Shown: positions 25,155-33,743 of the stretch, one piece after another
How the letters are laid out: the number at the start of each line of letters is the position of its first letter
How positions within the stretch are numbered: the stretch's first letter is position 1
From: Schumannella sp. 10F1B-5-1
Lineage (GTDB): Bacteria > Actinomycetota > Actinomycetes > Actinomycetales > Microbacteriaceae
Direction of reading: 5' to 3'
DNA length: 64,000 bases
Assembly (NCBI RefSeq): GCF_006517535.1
Contig: NZ_VHQH01000039.1
Span: 430,798-494,797, forward strand
The notes under the pieces: generated by a model
What the model saw: the letters and a program-made list of their open reading frames with translations, nothing else
The model's database searches: none
Told to the model about the DNA's origin: nothing
Made by a program: the position numbers and the translations under genes

Positions 25155-26636
25155 TCAGCCCTCCCGGAGGTAGCGCCGCGGCTTGCCCTCGCCGAGGTCG
25201 ATCGGGCGGGGCACCGCATCCACCTCGACCGGCACCCCGAGCAGGGCGTGGATGCGGCGGGCCGCGGCGGGCGCGTCTCCCCCGGCGATGCGCGCCAGCA
25301 CCGAGCCGTCGAGCCGCTGGGTGAGCGACCAGGCCAGCGCGCCCGCATCCTGCAGGTACTGGGTGAGGTCGACCGTGTTGATCGGCGCGCCGTCGGCCGT
25401 GACGAAGTCGACGTGCTCGCGCCCCTCGAGGTCGGCGATCGCCGGGGCGCCGTCGCGCAGCACGAGGCGTCCGTGGTCGCCCGTGCGGTAGCGCACGAGC
25501 GGCAGCAGCGGATTGCTGCCGGCCGTGACGACGAGCTCGCCGCGCGGGGTCGCTCCCTCGGCGTCCGGGGCGAGCATCCGGCCCGCATCGTCGGCCACCT
25601 CGACCCGCACGCGCGTGTCGAGCACGCGGAACGGACCGTCGTCGGCCCGCCAGGCGATCGGGCGGGTCTCGTGCAGGCCGTAGAGGTCGAGCACCGGAAC
25701 GCCGAAGCGCGCCTCGAGCGCCGCCCGCAGCGGGGCGGTCAGGTGCAGGGCGCCGCTCACGATCGCGAGCGGCGCCACGGCCGCAGCCGTGTCGGGCTCG
25801 AGCAGGGTCGCGAGGCTGCTCGGGTTGCCGCTGATCACCTGCGGGTCGTGCGCGCGCAGGAAGGCGACGCGGTCGGCGACGGGCCAGTCGCGGGCGTCGA
25901 GGTTGAGGCGGGCCATGATGCCCGGGCCGGCGGCGGCGGCGCCCGGAGCGTGCGGGCCCGCCGCGTCAGCGTCGGTGACGACATCGCCGGCGAACCCCGG
26001 GATGGGCGAGGCGTAGGTGAACGCCTGCCGCTGGTGCACGACGAGAGCGAGCGCCAGGCGCCGCGCATCCGGCTGCCAGTCGACGCCGAGCCCGGCGAGC
26101 AGCCGGCGCACGAGCCAGAAGGTGCGCGCGACGTCCTCGGTGTCGTCGGGCAGCAGCAGCGCCGCCCCGGTCGACCCCGAGCTCGAGCCCTGCACGAGCC
26201 GGCCGAGATCCGCGTCGCGCGGCACGAAGCCCGCGACGTCGGCGGCGAGGTCGCGGCGCGAGATCAGCGGGAAGTCGTCGAGCTCACGGAGGCCCGCGTC
26301 GTCGCTTCCCCGCAGGGCCCGATAGGCGGGCAGAGCCCGCGCGACCGCGAGATGCCCGGGCAGCCAGTCGTCGGCCGGCAGCTCGGTGCGCGCGCGAGCG
26401 ACGCCGTCGGCCGCGAGCCGGTGGCCGACGCGATGCCGCCAGACCGGCGCGGCGGGATGCGCGAGCACTGCCTCGAGTCGGTCGCGGTCGTGCGGGGCCA
26501 GCCCCGGCCAGCGCTCCTCGTCGCTCAGCGCGACGGTCGAGCCGGGCACGTAGTGCGGCAGCACGATGTCGGCGATCGGCTCCGTCGCGCTCCGAGGAGC
26601 GGCCGGATCGCTGATGCGGGCATCCGCCTCACTCAT
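25155..26636 (-). CDS. PaaK/CapK-like adenylate-forming protein of the MoxR operon
   Basis: A 493-residue protein of the phenylacetate-CoA ligase / CapK branch of the adenylate-forming superfamily. The nucleotide-binding loop [13 protein letters not shown] is at about residues 151-163, an adenine-pocket segment [10 protein letters not shown] is in the middle, and the hinge motif [16 protein letters not shown] is near the C-terminus. The short C-terminal domain ends in [12 protein letters not shown]. Substrate is unknown: it could activate an aromatic or fatty acid, or a protein-bound group. The ATG at 26636 overlaps the preceding gene by 8 nt, making it the last of five coupled genes. That operon context (MoxR ATPase, HExxH-VWA protein) is unusual for this family and points away from simple aromatic catabolism. 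Confidence 0.7.
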
Positions 26637-27297
26637 GCGAGTAGCGGGCCGCCGCCTCCGCCGCGCGCTTCTCGGCCAGAGCCGCCTGGATGCGCCGCCG
26701 GTGCTCCTCGTCGGCGACGAGCTCGCGCAGCGCCGCGTCGCGGGCCAGGCTGTCGCGGCGCTCCCAGCGGGCCCGCGCCGTCGGCACGTCCTCCCCGGCC
26801 GGCAGCCGTCCGCTCCACAGCAGGAACAGGCGGGCGGCCTCCTCGCGGGTGTCGTCGTCCGACAGCCAGCGTCGCGGGGGCGCGACCGGCGCGAGCCGGA
26901 AGGCGAGCGCGCCGATCGAGGAATGGGCCCAGCGCGCATCCAGAGGCGGATCGAAGGGCTCGAGCAGCTCGTCGCTGGCCCAGAGCCAGAGCGCGAGCGC
27001 CGCGCCCTGACGGCTCGCCGGATCGGGCTGCGCCTCGGCGGCGATGGCGGCGGCGCTCGCCCGCACGTGATCGGGCGCGCCGGCCAGCACATCGCCCGCG
27101 AGCGCGACGAGCGACACCGCATCGGCGAGGAAGGCCTGCGGCGCCGACGAGAGCCGGGTCTGCACGACGTCGAGCGACGGCCCGGGCGCGAGAGCGTCCC
27201 AGACGCGCACCTCGTCGAGGCGCAGGTCGAACCAGCGGCGCAGCGGCTGGTCGCCGAGTCCGCCCCCGGCCGGCCGGGGATCGGGACGGTCAGTCAC
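26629..27297 (-). CDS. unknown 222-aa protein of the MoxR-VWA operon
   Basis: I do not recognise this protein. It is alanine-, leucine- and arginine-rich, looks mostly alpha-helical, and has no signal peptide or membrane span. Aromatic residues cluster in RRWFDLRLDEVRVWD near the N-terminus and ALWLWASDELLEPF in the centre. The C-terminal 40 residues (RRRIQAALAEKRAAEAAARY) are predicted coiled or single-helix. It overlaps the upstream VWA gene and the downstream adenylate-forming gene by 8 nt each, so its synthesis is tied to both. A scaffold or adaptor role is only a guess from this position. Confidence 0.75.
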   Translation of the reverse strand: MTDRPDPRPAGGGLGDQPLRRWFDLRLDEVRVWDALAPGPSLDVVQTRLSSAPQAFLADAVSLVALAGDVLAGAPDHVRASAAAIAAEAQPDPASRQGAALALWLWASDELLEPFDPPLDARWAHSSIGALAFRLAPVAPPRRWLSDDDTREEAARLFLLWSGRLPAGEDVPTARARWERRDSLARDAALRELVADEEHRRRIQAALAEKRAAEAAARYSHE

Positions 27298-29263
27298 GGG
27301 CGTCCTCCTTCGCGGTGCGCACGATCGTGGCGGCGAGACGCCGACAGGCCGCCGGGGCGTCGGCGTGCGTGGCGATGTGCTCGAGCGTGTACCCGTTGGT
27401 CCGCGCGAGCGCCGGCAGATCGCCGAGCCACCCGATCACCAGCAGGGTCGCGGTGTCGACCTTCGCCCGCACCTCGCCCGCGACGTGCTCGAGCCCGTCC
27501 TGGCCGCGCCCGAACAGCGACTCGAGCCCGCCGTCCGAGAGCACGACGAGATGCCGCCGCCTGTCGGCGCGACGACGCTGCTCGCGGTAGCGCCGGCCGA
27601 GCAGGTCGAGCGGGAAGGTCGTGCCGCCGCCGAAGTAGTGCAGCAGCGCGCCGATCGCCTCGCTGCGGTTGCGCGTCGGCCGCTCGAGGCCGGCGACCTG
27701 ACCCGGGCCCGAGAACGAGGTGACCTGCACGCGCCCGCCGCCCGCGAGCACCGATTCGAGCAGGATCGCCCCGGCCAGCAGCGCCGGCGAATCGGCCGAG
27801 GGCCTTGGCATCGAACCCGAGGAGTCGACCCAGAGGTCGAGGTCGATGCCCTCCTCGCGCACGGGCGGATCATCGTCGAGCCAGGTGCGCCGGCGCGTGG
27901 TGACGCCCGGCACGATCCGCGGCGCCGCCGCGAGCGTCGCCCGCCAGTCGACCGCCGTCAGCTCGTCGTCGACGCCCCAGATCTCGGTCGGCCCGGGGAT
28001 CTGCTCCCCGGTCGGCTCGGGCACGGCGGGCTCCCGCAGCGGCGTCACCCAGCGCCGGGCGCCGTCGAGGTACCACGCGCGCAGCACGCGGTCCGCCATC
28101 GCCGGCCCGTAGAGCTCGAGCGTCTGCGCGAGCCCATAGCCCTGACCGCCCGAGGCGGCGGGCGCGCCGGCGCTCGTCGCGACCTCCTGCACGGCGCTCG
28201 CGCCGCTGCCGCCGCCCGCCTCCAGCGCCGGATGCTGCGGGGTCTCGCTGAGGCGCGCATCCCGCAGCACCTCGCCGAGCTCGGCCTCCGTGGGATCGGG
28301 GCTGCCGATCTCGCCGGCGCAGGGCACGCCCGTGCCGCCCGCATCGCCCGCGCCGCCGCGACCCGGGCGGCCGCGCCCGGAGCCGCGCCCGCCGCCGCCG
28401 CCGGCACGATCGGCCTCGAGCAGGTACGGGGCCAAGATCATCCCCGCCCGCAGCGCGCCGCGGATCGGGTCGTCGCCGAAGGTGCGCACCGTCCGCGCCA
28501 GCAGACGCGCGTCGGCCTCGGGATGCGTGCGGGTCAGCGCGAGCAGCTCGGCGTGCGCGCGCTCGGCCTCGGCGGTCGCGGCGTCGAGCTTCGCCTGCTG
28601 CTCGCGGAACCGCTCAGCGACCGCGGTCGCGCGCGCCGCCGAGGGCTCCGGTACCGCGGGCGGCGGCGGGGCGGCGGGCGGCTCGATCGGCACCAGGCTG
28701 CCGTCGGGCAGGTCCCACAGGTGCTCGTAGGCACGCAGCACGACCCAGAACAGCCGACCCGGCGGCTCGGTCGACAGCAGACGCCAGAGACGGATCATGC
28801 CGGGCTCGCGCACGACGCCGTCGCGCGCATCCCGCTGCGCCTGCATCTCGGCGACGCGCACGTTGATCAGCATGTCGGACCAGAGATTCGCCATCAGGGC
28901 CGCGCGATCGGCGAGGTCGTGCGGCGCCTCGAACGAGCTCGCCACGAGCGCCCGCGCCATCTGCTGGCGGATCTTCAGACTCGCGATCCGCGTGCTCGGC
29001 GACAGCACGTGGTGGCCGATCTCGTGCGCGAACACGGTCGCCCACTCCCGGTCGGCGCCGACGCGCCGCGCCTCGACCGGGTCGACGGTCACCTGCGGCG
29101 GGAAACCGAACCAGGCGAAGCTCGGCTGCCCGGCCTTCGGCTCGATCTGCGCGGGGTGCAGGCGCACGCCCCACAGCTCCTGCGCCTCCTCCCACGCCGG
29201 CGCGAGCTCGGGCGGCAGCGGCTGCGGCCGCGCCCGCGATCCCGGGTGCGCCGCGCGGCTCAC
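27290..29263 (-). CDS. zincin-like (HExxH) and von Willebrand A domain protein
   Basis: A 657-residue cytoplasmic protein with two recognisable parts. The N-terminal part has HEIGHH at residues 80-85, a zinc-metallopeptidase-like HExxH in the context ATVFAHEIGHHVLSPS. The middle is low-complexity, Pro- then Gly/Arg-rich (GGGGGRGSGRGRPGRGG). The C-terminal part is a von Willebrand A domain with a complete MIDAS start DSSGSM (Asp480, Ser482, Ser484). VWA proteins commonly work with MoxR AAA+ ATPases, here encoded two genes upstream. The start is the GTG at 29263 overlapping the previous stop (GTGA); further upstream the frame is an Arg/Ala shadow. A predicted peptidase joined to a VWA domain fits a regulated protease or metal-loading machine. 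Confidence 0.82.
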   Translation of the reverse strand: MSRAAHPGSRARPQPLPPELAPAWEEAQELWGVRLHPAQIEPKAGQPSFAWFGFPPQVTVDPVEARRVGADREWATVFAHEIGHHVLSPSTRIASLKIRQQMARALVASSFEAPHDLADRAALMANLWSDMLINVRVAEMQAQRDARDGVVREPGMIRLWRLLSTEPPGRLFWVVLRAYEHLWDLPDGSLVPIEPPAAPPPPAVPEPSAARATAVAERFREQQAKLDAATAEAERAHAELLALTRTHPEADARLLARTVRTFGDDPIRGALRAGMILAPYLLEADRAGGGGGRGSGRGRPGRGGAGDAGGTGVPCAGEIGSPDPTEAELGEVLRDARLSETPQHPALEAGGGSGASAVQEVATSAGAPAASGGQGYGLAQTLELYGPAMADRVLRAWYLDGARRWVTPLREPAVPEPTGEQIPGPTEIWGVDDELTAVDWRATLAAAPRIVPGVTTRRRTWLDDDPPVREEGIDLDLWVDSSGSMPRPSADSPALLAGAILLESVLAGGGRVQVTSFSGPGQVAGLERPTRNRSEAIGALLHYFGGGTTFPLDLLGRRYREQRRRADRRRHLVVLSDGGLESLFGRGQDGLEHVAGEVRAKVDTATLLVIGWLGDLPALARTNGYTLEHIATHADAPAACRRLAATIVRTAKEDARD

Positions 29264-29925
29264 GCGCGCCGCCGCACGGTCACGAGGTAGCTGTCGGGCG
29301 CGATCGCGGCCTCGAGACGGGCGTCGGGATGCGCGGCCCCCGCGGGCGCGTCGGCTCCGAGCGGCACGGACTCGAGCGCGTGCAGGCGCACGCCCACCGC
29401 ATCCAGCTCGACCCGCCACCAGGCGCCGTCGGCCCGCACGGCGAGATCCTCGCCGGCGCCGACCACGACCTGCGCGGGAGGGGCGGTCCAGGCTCCGCCG
29501 AGCCCGCGGAATCCGCCGACGCGCACGATCTCGTCACCGGGTCCGGTCCCGGGCCAGAACAGCGGATCGTCCGCCGCCGCACGCCAGTCCGCCACCGCCG
29601 CGACGCCGATGCCGAGCACGGCCGCCACCGCCGCATCCGGCAACGCGCCGGCGCCCTCGTGAGCGCTGCGCCGGAACGCCGGGATGCCGGAGCGCCACGC
29701 CGCGAGCGTGCCCAGCGCGCGCACCGCCGCGTCGGTCGCCGCTGTCGCATCGTGCCCCGCGGCATCCAGCGCCGCCAGCCCGGCCGCCGCGGCGGCCCGG
29801 TAGCGGGCGACGTCGCCGCCCCAGGTCGCGACGCGCTCGACCGTGGCGGCGAGCGGCTCGGGCAGCGCGCCCGGATCCGCGACGACGCCGGCGTCGTTCG
29901 CCGACACCCCGGGGTGGCGCATCAT
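29260..29925 (-). CDS. unknown 221-aa protein of the MoxR-VWA operon
   Basis: I do not recognise this protein. The N-terminal half is alanine-rich and helical. The C-terminal half reads like a small beta-rich domain (GDEIVRVGGFRGLGGAW, GAWWRVELDAVGVRLHALES, SYLVTVRRRA). There is no signal peptide, membrane helix or obvious catalytic motif. It overlaps the MoxR gene upstream and the VWA gene downstream by 4 nt each (ATGA, GTGA). In described MoxR-VWA systems the third partner is often a beta-propeller or other adaptor. Whether this beta-rich C-terminus is such an adaptor cannot be told from the sequence alone. Confidence 0.75.
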   Translation of the reverse strand: MMRHPGVSANDAGVVADPGALPEPLAATVERVATWGGDVARYRAAAAAGLAALDAAGHDATAATDAAVRALGTLAAWRSGIPAFRRSAHEGAGALPDAAVAAVLGIGVAAVADWRAAADDPLFWPGTGPGDEIVRVGGFRGLGGAWTAPPAQVVVGAGEDLAVRADGAWWRVELDAVGVRLHALESVPLGADAPAGAAHPDARLEAAIAPDSYLVTVRRRA

Positions 29926-31490
29926 CGCCGCGACGACTCGAGCCAGCGCAGGTAGTTCGTGTAGCGCTGGTGCAGGTATTTGAGGGCGAGCAGGTCGTCG
30001 TAGTCGCGGCCGTAGAGCTTGCCGGTCGCGGCGATCGCGCCGATCGCCGACTCGACCGCGGTCACCCGCCGCGACGTGGTCAGCGCATCCAGCCCCTCGA
30101 GCCCGGGCGCGGCCTCGGCGAGCAGCCGACCCACCGGATCCTCCCGGTCACGGCGCAGCGTGGCGAACTGCGCCGACGACTGCCGCCACAGATCGCGCAG
30201 CCAGGCCACCGCATCCGTCGCCAGCTCGCGATCGAGCTCGCCCTCGAAGCGCGGATGCGTCGGGTTCGGCAGCAGCTTGCCGCGCAGCACGAAGGGCAGC
30301 ACGGCCGCCACGTCGTCGTGCGTGACCTCGGCGACGCCGCGGAACCAGGCCATCGCCTTCGCGTACAGCACGAGCGTCTGCAGCGCGCGCACCGAGATGC
30401 TGTTGGTGGTCTGCGCCCCGAGGTCGGCCTCGAGGTCGGCGCCGCCGTTGCTCTCGATCACCTCGGCGACGCTCGCGCCGGCCGTCGCCACCGTGTCCTT
30501 GGTGCGGTACTCGAAGGCGCGACCGCCGTGCTGCACGAACTCGAAGTGACTCGTGAAGAACTCCAGCCGCCGCAGCACGGGCGCCGGCACCGGCACCGCG
30601 CGGATCTCGGCGGCCATGCTGCGCCGCCCCTCGGCGTCGAAGCGCAGCTCGGGCGGCACGTGGTCCTCGGGGCGCTCGCCGCGCTCGACCCGCGCCACCA
30701 GCTCGCCGAAGAAGCGGCTGTTGAAGCCGAGCGCCGCGACCGTCACATCCATGCGATCGCGCAGCGCCTGGATGACCGGGAAGGTGCCGCCGCCGGCGTC
30801 GTCGTTCGCCGTGAAGTACCAGGCGTCGACCCCCGACTCCCCCGCCGTGCGCAGCTGCTGGTCGTAGCTCTCGACGTAGCCCTCGGCCACCATCGTGAGC
30901 AGCGCCGACTGCGTCTTCGTCGGGATGCGGTTGTACTCGTCGACGATCTTCACCGGCCGGGCGAGCCAGCCGCGCCAGGCGACCCGCACCGCATCCAGGC
31001 TCTCGGCCTCGACCAGGTCGCGCGGCAACGGGGCGCCCACGAGGTCGCTCACGGTGAGCTGCGGCTGACCCTGCACGACGGCCGTGCGCACGGCGGCGGG
31101 CTCGTCGCCCGCCAGCACGCCCATGAGCACGGCGAGTGTCGTCTTGCCGCGCCCCGGCCCGCCGATCAGCAGGCAGCGTCCGCCGACGGCGAAGGTCAGC
31201 AGCGGCAGCAGCACGTTCGACGAGTACGACTGGTCGGTCGCCAGCTCGAGCCGCGCGCCCGCGTCGCCCAGCTCGAACGAGAGCGGCGCATCCCGCGAGA
31301 ACTCGACGTCGTAGAACGGCGAGATGACGGCCCGGTTCACGAGCCAGAAGTAGGCCTGCCGCAGCCGCTCGTCGAGCGGCGGCGCGACCGGCGCCGCCGT
31401 GCCGAAGAGGTCGTCGGCGTCGAGCTCGGCGCCCTGGTCGGCCCCGCTGCGGGTGGGCGACGACGAGACGTGGCTCCAGCGGTCGCTCAT
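29922..31490 (-). CDS. MoxR-type AAA+ ATPase
   Basis: A 522-residue AAA+ ATPase. Walker A is GGPGRGKT at residues 110-117, Walker B is KIVDEYNR around Asp184-Glu185 (compare LLDEINR of MoxR), and the sensor 1 region is WYFTANDD. A typical AAA lid follows, then a helical C-terminal extension. MoxR ATPases act as chaperones that remodel or load cofactors into partner complexes, usually with a VWA protein, here two genes downstream. The ATG at 31490 has no Shine-Dalgarno; TAGGGT ends 7 nt upstream, so the mRNA is probably leaderless. It heads the five-gene coupled operon 31490-25155. I cannot assign it to a named MoxR subfamily. Confidence 0.88.
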   Translation of the reverse strand: MSDRWSHVSSSPTRSGADQGAELDADDLFGTAAPVAPPLDERLRQAYFWLVNRAVISPFYDVEFSRDAPLSFELGDAGARLELATDQSYSSNVLLPLLTFAVGGRCLLIGGPGRGKTTLAVLMGVLAGDEPAAVRTAVVQGQPQLTVSDLVGAPLPRDLVEAESLDAVRVAWRGWLARPVKIVDEYNRIPTKTQSALLTMVAEGYVESYDQQLRTAGESGVDAWYFTANDDAGGGTFPVIQALRDRMDVTVAALGFNSRFFGELVARVERGERPEDHVPPELRFDAEGRRSMAAEIRAVPVPAPVLRRLEFFTSHFEFVQHGGRAFEYRTKDTVATAGASVAEVIESNGGADLEADLGAQTTNSISVRALQTLVLYAKAMAWFRGVAEVTHDDVAAVLPFVLRGKLLPNPTHPRFEGELDRELATDAVAWLRDLWRQSSAQFATLRRDREDPVGRLLAEAAPGLEGLDALTTSRRVTAVESAIGAIAATGKLYGRDYDDLLALKYLHQRYTNYLRWLESSRR

Positions 31491-31496
31491 GTCGCC

Positions 31497-31502
31497 ACCC
31501 TA
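31497..31502 (-). promoter_or_regulatory. leaderless -10 hexamer of the MoxR operon
   Basis: TAGGGT on minus with its last base exactly 7 nt before the ATG, so transcription should start on the A of the start codon. The window between this and the stop of the upstream membrane-protein gene is only 28 nt. No -35 consensus and no TGTCRGTG element is present. Confidence 0.5.
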
Positions 31503-31518: not shown

Positions 31519-32604
31519 TCACTCGTCGACCGTCACGGTCACCGTGTCGCCGTCGAAGGAGCCCGATCCGCGCAGCACGATGGTCGACTCCCGCTGCTGG
31601 GATGACGTCGCACCCGACCGGTCGGTGACGTCGTAGGTCGCGACGGCGACCCCCTCCACCCGCCACTCGAAGGCGCCGTCGGGCTGGATCGACACCTGCG
31701 CCGGCTGCCGCGACCCCAGGCTCCAGCTGACGGGCCCGGTGCGCGCGGGCAGACCGGGCATCAGGCAGTCGCCCCGGTTCGGCCAGGGGTCGCTCGTGTG
31801 CAGGCAGGCCGCGATGCGCGCGTCGGCCACCGGGTCGATCTGGGCCGCGAGATCGTCGGTCGCCTGCGCCTGCAGCAGCAGACTGCGATCGCCGAGCGTG
31901 TCGGACATGTACGTCCAGACCGGCCCCGCCGTCTGCCAGCGATCGCCCGCCCAGCTCGCCTCGTAGCGGCCGGGCATGACCGCGAACGACCGCGGTGCGC
32001 CGTTCTCCAGATCGACGTCGACGCCGTTGACCTGCACGGGAGCTCCCGGCAGCTCGTGGATGTCGAAGCCGATCGCCGTCGAGACGGAGATCTGGCCCCG
32101 CAGCGGCTCGGTGACCTGCCAGCTGTCGAGCAGCACGCGGGGCTTGTCGAAGCGCGGAGACCGCAGACGGACCTCCGTGTGCACGGTCTCGCCGCCCAGC
32201 GCGTAGGCGACCTTCACGGTCGCCTCGTCCCACTCACGGCCCACGTGCTGGCTGACGGCGCCGATGCGGATGTCGCGGATGCGCGACCCGGCGGGCAGCG
32301 CGGCATCGACGAGCAGCGGGTCGGCGTCGGTCTCGTCGGCGTCGTCGGCGGCGTCGGACTCCCCGGCGTCGTCGCGCTCCTCCATCGCGATCGCCGCGCG
32401 CACCTGCCCGTGCGCGATCGCGTCGAGGTAGTCCCGCACCCGCTGCTCGGGCGAGAACCACTGCGCATTGACGACGGCGACCGCAGCGACTCCGGCGATC
32501 AGCGCGAGCACCACGAGCGACGCCGTGACGGTCATCCACGGCCGGATATAGAGCACGCGCCGACCGTGCTCGTCGAAGCGCGGCTCGTCGCGCAGGTCGG
32601 CCAT
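31519..32604 (-). CDS. single-pass membrane protein, tandem paralogue 3 of 3
   Basis: A 361-residue protein of unknown function. A short cytoplasmic N-terminus is followed by one membrane helix (residues about 22-45, VTASLVVLALIAGVAAVAVV) and a large extracytoplasmic part. Right after the helix comes WFSPEQRVRDYLDAIAHGQVRAA, resembling the start of an NTF2-like or DUF4878-type domain. An acidic insert (DDADETDAD) follows, then VNGVDVDL, PGRYEASW, a Cys pair (ACLHTSDPWPNRGDCLMPG), and a final SW-to-VATYDV segment. All of these correspond to positions in the next two genes upstream. The ATG at 32604 overlaps the preceding stop by 1 nt. It is the last of the three and ends 28 nt before the MoxR operon. 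Confidence 0.8.
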   Translation of the reverse strand: MADLRDEPRFDEHGRRVLYIRPWMTVTASLVVLALIAGVAAVAVVNAQWFSPEQRVRDYLDAIAHGQVRAAIAMEERDDAGESDAADDADETDADPLLVDAALPAGSRIRDIRIGAVSQHVGREWDEATVKVAYALGGETVHTEVRLRSPRFDKPRVLLDSWQVTEPLRGQISVSTAIGFDIHELPGAPVQVNGVDVDLENGAPRSFAVMPGRYEASWAGDRWQTAGPVWTYMSDTLGDRSLLLQAQATDDLAAQIDPVADARIAACLHTSDPWPNRGDCLMPGLPARTGPVSWSLGSRQPAQVSIQPDGAFEWRVEGVAVATYDVTDRSGATSSQQRESTIVLRGSGSFDGDTVTVTVDE

Positions 32605-33743
32605 CAGTCGGCCGTCACGGTCGGCTCGGCGCCGTCGAGCGCGACGGACCCGCTGACGACCGAGCGCACCCGGCGCGTGCTGGTCTCGGGCCCGGCGCCG
32701 TCGTCGCGGGTGTAGGTGGCGACGACCACGCCCTCGCCCGACCAGCTGAGCTCGTGCTCGTCGACGAGGCGGAAGTCGAGGCGCGGGTACGACTCGACCG
32801 ACCAGGTGACGGCGTCGACGCCGCGGATGCTCGTGCCGAAGGGGCACCCGGCGGGCATCGAGGCGGTCTGCGCGAGGCAGGCGTCGACCTCGCCGTCGGC
32901 CACCGGCTGCACCAGGGCGGCCAGATCGTGCGAGGCGCCGAGACTGAGGCTGATCGCCGCCTTGTCGTCGTCGGCGCCGACGGCGGTCGAAGCGCTCGCG
33001 GCGTAGAGCCAGCGCGAGTCGCGGTACTCGGCGTCGTAGCGGCCCGGCAGCACGGCGAACACGGCCTGCCCGCCGTCGACGTCGACATCCACGCCGTTGA
33101 CGGTCGCGGTGTCGACGGTGTCGATGCGCACGCTCAGCTCGCGGTCGAGGCCGCGCACGACGCGCCAGTCGTCGAAGACGCCCCACTGACGGCCGCGGGA
33201 CTCGAGCTCGATCTCGGTCTGCACCTCGGCGCCGCCCAGCTGGTACTCGACCTCGATGACGGCTCGGTCGACGCCGTCGCTCGTCGTGCGGCGCACGTCG
33301 CCGAGCTTCCAGTCCTGGAGGCGGCTCTCGGGATCCGCCAGCGCCGCGTCGACCAGCAGCGCGGACCCGCCGTCGGCGGTCGGCGGCGCCAGCTTCACGG
33401 CCTGCGCGACATCACCGCGGGCGACCAGGCGCAGGTACTGCTCGGCCGTGCCGGTCGGCGCGAACATGGCGCGGTTGACGGCGCCGATCGTGATGCTGCT
33501 CGCGATGATCAGCACGAGAAGCACGGCCGCCGAGATGGCGATGGCGCGCACCCGGCGCCCGCGACGCGAGAGCCCGGTCGGCGCCGCTGACGGGTTCGCG
33601 CCCGCGGCGACCGGCGGGACGTCGGCACGCGGCGCCTCGGAGAAGACGGCGCGACGCCCGTGGTCGGCCGGCAGCTCGTTCGCGCGGCGGTAGCCGAGAT
33701 CGAAGGGAGGCGGAGCAGGATCGCTCCTCGGAGGGGTGGTCAT
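32604..33743 (-). CDS. single-pass membrane protein, tandem paralogue 2 of 3
   Basis: A 379-residue paralogue of its two neighbours. The cytoplasmic N-terminus (about 60 residues) is Pro- and Arg-rich. One membrane helix follows at about residues 66-88 (IAISAAVLLVLIIASSITIG), then the extracytoplasmic region with FAPTGTAEQYLRLVARGDVAQA. Next come a beta-rich middle (VNGVDVDVDGGQAVFAVLPG, then RYDAEYRDSRWLYA), the Cys pair in ACLAQTASMPAGCPFG, and SWSVESYPRLDF followed by VVATYTRDD. No enzyme motif is visible. The domain plan suggests an exported sensor or envelope-assembly factor with the Cys pair possibly disulfide-bonded; this is inference only. Confidence 0.8.
   Translation of the reverse strand: MTTPPRSDPAPPPFDLGYRRANELPADHGRRAVFSEAPRADVPPVAAGANPSAAPTGLSRRGRRVRAIAISAAVLLVLIIASSITIGAVNRAMFAPTGTAEQYLRLVARGDVAQAVKLAPPTADGGSALLVDAALADPESRLQDWKLGDVRRTTSDGVDRAVIEVEYQLGGAEVQTEIELESRGRQWGVFDDWRVVRGLDRELSVRIDTVDTATVNGVDVDVDGGQAVFAVLPGRYDAEYRDSRWLYAASASTAVGADDDKAAISLSLGASHDLAALVQPVADGEVDACLAQTASMPAGCPFGTSIRGVDAVTWSVESYPRLDFRLVDEHELSWSGEGVVVATYTRDDGAGPETSTRRVRSVVSGSVALDGAEPTVTAD

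Follow-up and report, generated by a model that had tools for sequence, protein, structure and literature searches.

A five-gene cassette of a MoxR-type ATPase, a zincin-VWA protein and a CapK-like enzyme co-occurs with PnuC-NadR in three phyla

Pairs of a MoxR-type ATPase and a VWA protein are known from several systems, namely RavA-ViaA, NorQ-NorD, CbbQ-CbbO and the Mg/Co chelatases. In the LarB/LarE/LarC pathway, which yields the nickel-pincer nucleotide, adenylation activates a nicotinate nucleotide that goes on to receive a metal, and to our knowledge the salvage of nicotinamide riboside needs only PnuC and NadR. MoxR-vWA ternary systems, as far as the accessible parts of the two reports go, contain other third components and variable effectors (Kaur 2020, PMC7159879; 2021, PMC8195603). 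Here we analyse a cassette found in a 64,000-nucleotide stretch of Schumannella sp. 10F1B-5-1 (contig NZ_VHQH01000039.1, positions 430,798 to 494,797), hereafter the window. It encodes a MoxR-family ATPase, a protein termed p221, a protein combining an HExxH zincin motif with a VWA domain, a protein termed p222 and a CapK/PaaK-like enzyme, and its homologues recur beside the genes for PnuC and NadR.

The five genes run head-to-tail on the minus strand from 31490 to 25155, and from moxR to the CapK-like gene the consecutive junctions overlap by 4, 4, 8 and 8 nt, which confirms the coupled arrangement given in a preliminary description of this DNA. Its conservation was followed in the window plus 96 loci picked by MoxR similarity and searched with iterated profiles; this set contains many near species, and at least four genomes stand in it twice (L032=L060, L047=L084, L051=L118, L053=L123; L and G are our own numbers for loci and genomes). 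Profiles matched MoxR in 97 loci, p221 in 96, the zincin-VWA protein in 95, p222 in 95 and CapK in 92. All five genes are present in 92 of the 97 loci and share one order and strand in 91, well beyond what coincidence would give. The exception is L098 (Mycolicibacterium houstonense), where the p222, vwa and capK frames are split or duplicated, perhaps by rearrangement. As for the five loci lacking capK, four stop short of where the gene would lie, while L121 has room for it and contains none. Since the cassette is found in Actinomycetota, Planctomycetota and Myxococcota as a conserved set, the proposal that the five genes form one unit is supported, and it withstood the comparison that could have overturned it, namely whether the genes occur together elsewhere.

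Neighbourhood analysis of moxR, besides confirming the five-gene block, revealed an additional recurrent partner. When flanking frames of 30 divergent loci were clustered, PnuC and NadR (20/30) emerged as the sole same-strand neighbours to recur in the 3 kb upstream of moxR. The former is a nicotinamide riboside transporter, over the cut-off of TIGR01528. The NadR-like neighbour matches TIGR01526 across both domains (E 2e-50), below the family cut-off, and possesses the nucleotidyltransferase and P-loop kinase domains expected of NadR (CTP_transf_like and AAA_28 in L135). Within the 97-locus set nadR is present in 68 loci and pnuC in 67; in 67 cases nadR precedes moxR on the same strand, the median gap between them being about 15 nt. 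Four rows, which are two Oerskovia genomes each counted twice, have about 3.4 kb between nadR and moxR. In three loci that were examined, the genes separating nadR from moxR look incidental, as labelled by eye. Other arrangements also occur: in the planctomycete L135 the PnuC-NadR pair is divergent upstream, in L164 pnuC stands directly 3' of capK, in L189 the pair is convergent and directly downstream, and in L192 it is again convergent but separated from the cassette by a second vwa-p222 pair. When this neighbour label is placed on a 111-row MoxR tree (L032, L047, L051, L053, L063, L091, L104, L107, L126, L131 and L171 were dropped as duplicate or short), it requires at least nine changes. 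The Schumannella genome has its own pnuC-nadR pair (G000:C322:139902-141682), and the pair was invisible to the preliminary description because its position is outside the window, about 290 kb before it.

The association extends beyond adjacency. We surveyed 396 genomes of the window's order, counting as carriers those with MoxR at E 1e-20 or better (15 genomes, the window's own included). NadR was found in 15/15 cassette genomes and in 16/381 others (Fisher 5.6e-19); leaving out the window's genome gives 14/14 against 16/381, and at the stricter NadR threshold of E 1e-40 or better the figures are 13/15 and 14/381 (p 2.5e-15). A separate test in Planctomycetota and Myxococcota yielded NadR in 14/18 main-clade carriers and in 0/33 controls (2.4e-9); these controls were the first listed genomes without a match, not a random draw, and their completeness is not stated, while G883, G949, G1153 (deep branch) and G1205 (main clade) were classed by bit score and not by tree. 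The link between the cassette and NAD (nicotinamide adenine dinucleotide) metabolism is thus well supported by comparative genomics. We tentatively read the five genes as encoding one machine that would act in a branch of nicotinamide riboside, nicotinamide mononucleotide (NMN) and NAD metabolism, the reaction itself being inferred.

Several known MoxR-VWA pairs are chaperones, and an envelope or metal-stress chaperone, tied to NadR through a shared lifestyle only, would agree with the patchy occurrence in the order. Shared lifestyle does not, however, explain an adjacency that takes several arrangements over three phyla, nor the contrast of 15/15 with 16/381, and we regard this explanation as very unlikely.

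A different relation to NadR is suggested by the NadR sequences themselves. At the position of the expected P-loop Lys, actinobacterial NadR reads GAESTG[ST]T; of the 70 cassette-linked frames 64 have this sequence, three could not be read and three have the Lys, and the copy in the window's genome is likewise without it. The kinase half of actinobacterial NadR may be atypical. Loss of this Lys was considered as a trait of the cassette and rejected, five NadRs from cassette-free genomes sharing the loss. The cassette might be a maturation or control device, in which the MoxR-VWA chaperone would set the salvage flux by activating or degrading NadR (or by acting on PnuC): among the actinobacterial genomes studied, carriers of the cassette almost always have NadR, and a kinase half lacking its usual Lys might need help. 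We nevertheless consider this improbable, given that cassette-free NadRs lack the Lys too, that the cassette-side NadRs of L135, L189 and L192 retain it, that 16/381 genomes have NadR without any cassette, and that both CapK and a deep branch of the MoxR tree (below) would be left unexplained.

The preferred reading, a machine acting in NAD metabolism, draws its possible chemistry from the five proteins. MoxR matches AAA_3 (E 7.5e-7) and AAA_lid_2 (E 2.6e-8), both above the Pfam cut-off, and its Walker A (GGPGRGKT) and VDEYNR motifs are invariant across 12 aligned sequences; it thus has the AAA_3 core, the lid and the Walker A/B motifs of its family, together with a VWA partner whose metal ion-dependent adhesion site (MIDAS) is intact. 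The partner itself gives sub-threshold Pfam matches to M48 (E 0.0041) and VWA_2 (E 0.16). The M48 profile stays under its cut-off (PF01435, 17.4 bits against 20.3), and 2/16 members match it at E up to 0.1. Its motifs in the window protein are HEIGHH at residues 80-85, N126-D130-N134, and a MIDAS composed of D480-x-S482-G-S484 and D577. H80, E81, H84, N126, D130, N134, D480, S482, S484 and D577 are invariant across 16 divergent members, and among the open frames HExGH is found in 103/103 and D[SC]SGS in 96/103. D130 is a candidate third metal ligand of the zincin site. The earlier proposal that the ATPase and the MIDAS protein control a zinc peptidase or a modification reaction fits these conserved motifs.

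The CapK-like protein is below the curated cut-offs of AMP-binding (Pfam, E 1.3e-5) and NF045666 (NCBIfam, E 3.5e-13), and is similar to the PaaK structure 2y4o (E 9e-7). It carries SSGSTG, YGxxE, RTGD and a C-terminal Lys, the AMP-binding motifs of adenylate-forming enzymes. G154 and E323 are each conserved in 35/35 sequences and D387 in 34/35; Lys485 is kept in 26 of the 31 rows with a letter at that position.

On the other two proteins the preliminary description, which had left them unrecognised, stands, as no convincing curated family emerged. Neither window protein has a Pfam or NCBIfam match; among 41 aligned members of each family, none of p221 matches Pfam at E 0.01 and one of p222 does so weakly (E 0.0065). 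Profile searches of PDB sequences returned none for p221 or p222 at E 1. The AlphaFold2 models of both are confident (predicted local distance difference test, pLDDT, 92.4 for p221 and 92.1 for p222), and Foldseek found nothing in the PDB at E 0.001 or better, the best values being 0.57 and 2.8, respectively. VIA-align reached a Z score of at best 6.0 with p221, against structures such as propellers and EED, and of 4.8 with p222; the former arises from residues 129-221 against beta-propellers (root-mean-square deviation 3.0 over 79 residues), a middling score. As such Z scores lie within the range of common arrangements, we claim no fold for p221 or p222.

Taken together, these features suggest how a machine of NAD metabolism might work. 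A MoxR ring would remodel the MIDAS protein, which would carry the zincin site; p221 and p222 would be subunits dedicated to it, and the CapK-like enzyme would make an acyl-adenylate. The likeliest job would be to build or install a modification or cofactor that is derived from, or dependent on, NMN or NAD, and PnuC-NadR would supply or recycle the pyridine nucleotide for it. In a more specific version the cassette would assemble a cofactor, not described so far, from a pyridine nucleotide: PnuC-NadR would give NMN or NAD, the CapK-like enzyme would activate a carboxylate as an acyl-adenylate, and the MoxR, MIDAS and zincin components with p221 and p222 would insert a metal or attach the product to a target enzyme; in this exact form we judge it distinctly unlikely.

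The distribution of the cassette and its most divergent members bear on yet another explanation, an NAD+-centred anti-phage conflict system: MoxR-VWA would sense the invader, the machine would consume or divert NAD+, and PnuC-NadR would restore it. MoxR-vWA pairs do figure in proposed conflict systems, according to the portions seen of PMC7159879 and PMC8195603, and the spread is patchy. Besides the 15/396 genomes of the order, a sample across the window's phylum has MoxR in just 2/396 genomes, one of them the window's own; this MoxR type occurs in 11/246 planctomycete genomes and in 18/227 genomes of the phylum of a Myxococcales metagenome-assembled genome (MAG). A scan of species genomes at E 1e-3 gave 448 stretches with MoxR relatives, among which different MoxR families may be included; the best 80 were taken. 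Among 13 further main-clade loci (L160, L163-L166, L189-L196) eight have all five genes, and L196 is a short contig. L163, L165, L166, L195 and L196, together with L164, form one clade having inserted genes or 2-3 kb gaps inside the cassette, and the inserted genes or long gaps of L163, L165, L166 and L195 would suit a conflict system, as would a gene with a Nuc_deoxyrib_tr domain between moxR and p221 in two planctomycete loci; this subclade with inserted genes is why we keep the explanation as a rival. On the other hand, most loci show no variable effectors, 92/97 holding the same five families; PADLOC returned only two weak P-loop matches to MoxR (E 0.04); MoxR had no match in plasmid or phage records at E 1e-5 and none in viral contigs; and in the window the cassette adjoins uvrA, which lies downstream. 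In the window's zincin-VWA protein, moreover, which has 657 residues, the Pfam match to VWA stops at residue 578 and nothing beyond it matched a domain (the C-termini of other members were not examined individually). With a mostly invariant set, little after the VWA domain of the window protein and recurrent partners of salvage or biosynthetic type, the hint at a conflict system in the preliminary description is not borne out, and an anti-phage role appears unlikely.

Some details of these loci are recorded here as observations. By eye, L163 has AlbA_2- and ParA-like inserts. The extra planctomycete gene (L138:11513-12535, and in L134 a frame ending at 2829) carries the Nuc_deoxyrib_tr domain at its C-terminus, over the Pfam cut-off only in L138, and its N-terminal part, which has no assignment, looks macro-like by eye. 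L192:15149-17592, in one genome of the phylum of the Myxococcales MAG, contains the second vwa and second p222 after capK.

Several observations weigh against a machine devoted to NAD metabolism. Two of the 15 carriers in the order, G335 and G363, have weak NadR matches of about 30% identity, and the cassette-free G381 of the same genus has a similar one. NadR was not found in 4/18 non-actinobacterial main-clade genomes, perhaps owing to genome gaps. For carriers without adjacent nadR, the presence of NadR elsewhere in the genome in 13/13 looked up speaks for the link, but the figure lacks cassette-free controls from the same genera and none of its matches reaches the family cut-off. These 13 are five Mycolicibacterium/Mycobacterium, four Agreia, two of the window's genus, Actinokineospora and G586, that is, 12 genomes of the 29 loci of this kind plus G586. 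As to the other 17 loci, the order survey covers the window, L049 and L050, and the test in Planctomycetota and Myxococcota covers L121, L129, L134 and L138, with L121 and L129 belonging to the same phylum sample. PnuC-NadR also exists without the cassette, in 16/381 genomes and at L141-L143, L145 and L146, so that the dependence runs one way. In the stretches retrieved, L163 and L195 lack capK, and L165 and L166 lack both p222 and capK. Finally, a deeper MoxR branch of eleven loci (L167-L170, L197-L203) often has just MoxR and VWA recognised, and two of them only MoxR; NadR occurs in 2/14 deep-branch carriers. The second gene of this branch was tried as a p221 homologue, and the profile comparison gave a probability of 0.1%, so homology is not claimed. 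With NadR rare in this branch and no demonstrable p221 at the p221 position, NAD as such may not be what the core machine is concerned with.

Within the deep branch, L202:448-5101 and L167:15441-19001 combine MoxR-VWA with Asn_synthase, a UDPGT-like glycosyltransferase and a PIG-L deacetylase, and L171:2511-7058 has the UDPGT-like and PIG-L genes beside MoxR without Asn_synthase; the other deep-branch loci do not show this set. Spread over two phyla, it looks like a glycoside gene cluster, and such neighbours favour a biosynthetic role in L167, L202 and L171. In L167 a B12-binding radical SAM gene immediately precedes moxR.

The features of the window are collected in Table 1. The single leaderless promoter proposed earlier is plausible: a hexamer at the same spacing reads TAGAGT in two same-genus relatives and TAGACT or TAAACT in three Agreia loci, and its retention while the flanks have diverged is what favours the proposal. 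Such a hexamer was not seen in the four mycobacterial loci compared alongside, and a sigma-70 scan gave nothing at the TAGGGT site. A frame on the same strand stops 28 nt before moxR, so that transcription may read through into the cassette. This frame is the nearer of two same-strand paralogues directly upstream of moxR (31519-33743, about 31% identical) without a Pfam match, and genes similar to this pair also precede moxR in two same-genus relatives.

Table 1. Cassette genes and candidate promoter element, in window positions.
Feature	Position	Strand	Remarks
MoxR-family AAA+ ATPase, first cassette gene	29922..31490	-	522 amino acids (aa); AAA_3 and AAA_lid_2 over cut-off
p221, unclassified	29260..29925	-	221 aa; helical N-terminal half, beta C-terminal half
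Zincin-VWA protein	27290..29263	-	657 aa; GTG start at 29263; HEIGHH and MIDAS motifs
p222, unclassified, all-helical	26629..27297	-	222 aa; C-terminal helix conserved
CapK/PaaK-like adenylate-forming enzyme	25155..26636	-	493 aa; AMP-binding motifs
TAGGGT, possible leaderless -10 element	31497..31502	-	6 nt before moxR ATG; putative

In the open-access literature searched (subscription papers and preprints lie mostly outside it), queries for MoxR with PnuC, MoxR with nicotinamide riboside and wider terms returned no description of the set, in agreement with the preliminary description, which knew of no such system. The portion seen of PMC9503650 covers NadR in phages. In the parts of PMC7159879 and PMC8195603 available to us, a set with CapK, NadR or HExxH-VWA is not named. 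Judged by these parts, the cassette resembles the MoxR-vWA ternary conflict systems in joining MoxR and vWA with further components, and differs in having no variable VWA effector and a mostly invariant gene set; the third components named there (VMAP, iSTAND, FtsH, beta-propeller, TERNS3) were not identified in the cassette by the Pfam matches of p221 (0/41) and p222 (1/41, weak), while the beta-propeller alignment of p221 residues 129-221 is the middling one given above.

Three of the five proteins either fall short of, or lie outside, all the Pfam and NCBIfam models checked, in what appears to be a conserved AAA+ machine present in three phyla, and the co-occurrence with NadR turns an unknown operon into a testable hypothesis of NAD metabolism, that is, a new use or derivative of nicotinamide riboside. 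With PaaK/CapK enzymes such as PaaK (2y4o) the cassette shares the AMP-binding core and motifs, whereas its protein is below the family cut-offs and is encoded in a MoxR operon. The resemblance to LarB/LarE/LarC is offered as an analogy only. Compared with PnuC-NadR salvage, the neighbour genes are the same and the five-gene set is additional here. Like the known MoxR/VWA systems, the cassette encodes a MoxR-type ATPase together with an intact-MIDAS VWA protein; unlike them, it has the VWA domain fused to HExxH, p221, p222 and a CapK-like enzyme as regular partners, and NadR-PnuC as a neighbour, so that, if our reading is right, a MoxR-VWA pair would gain a defined metabolic context.

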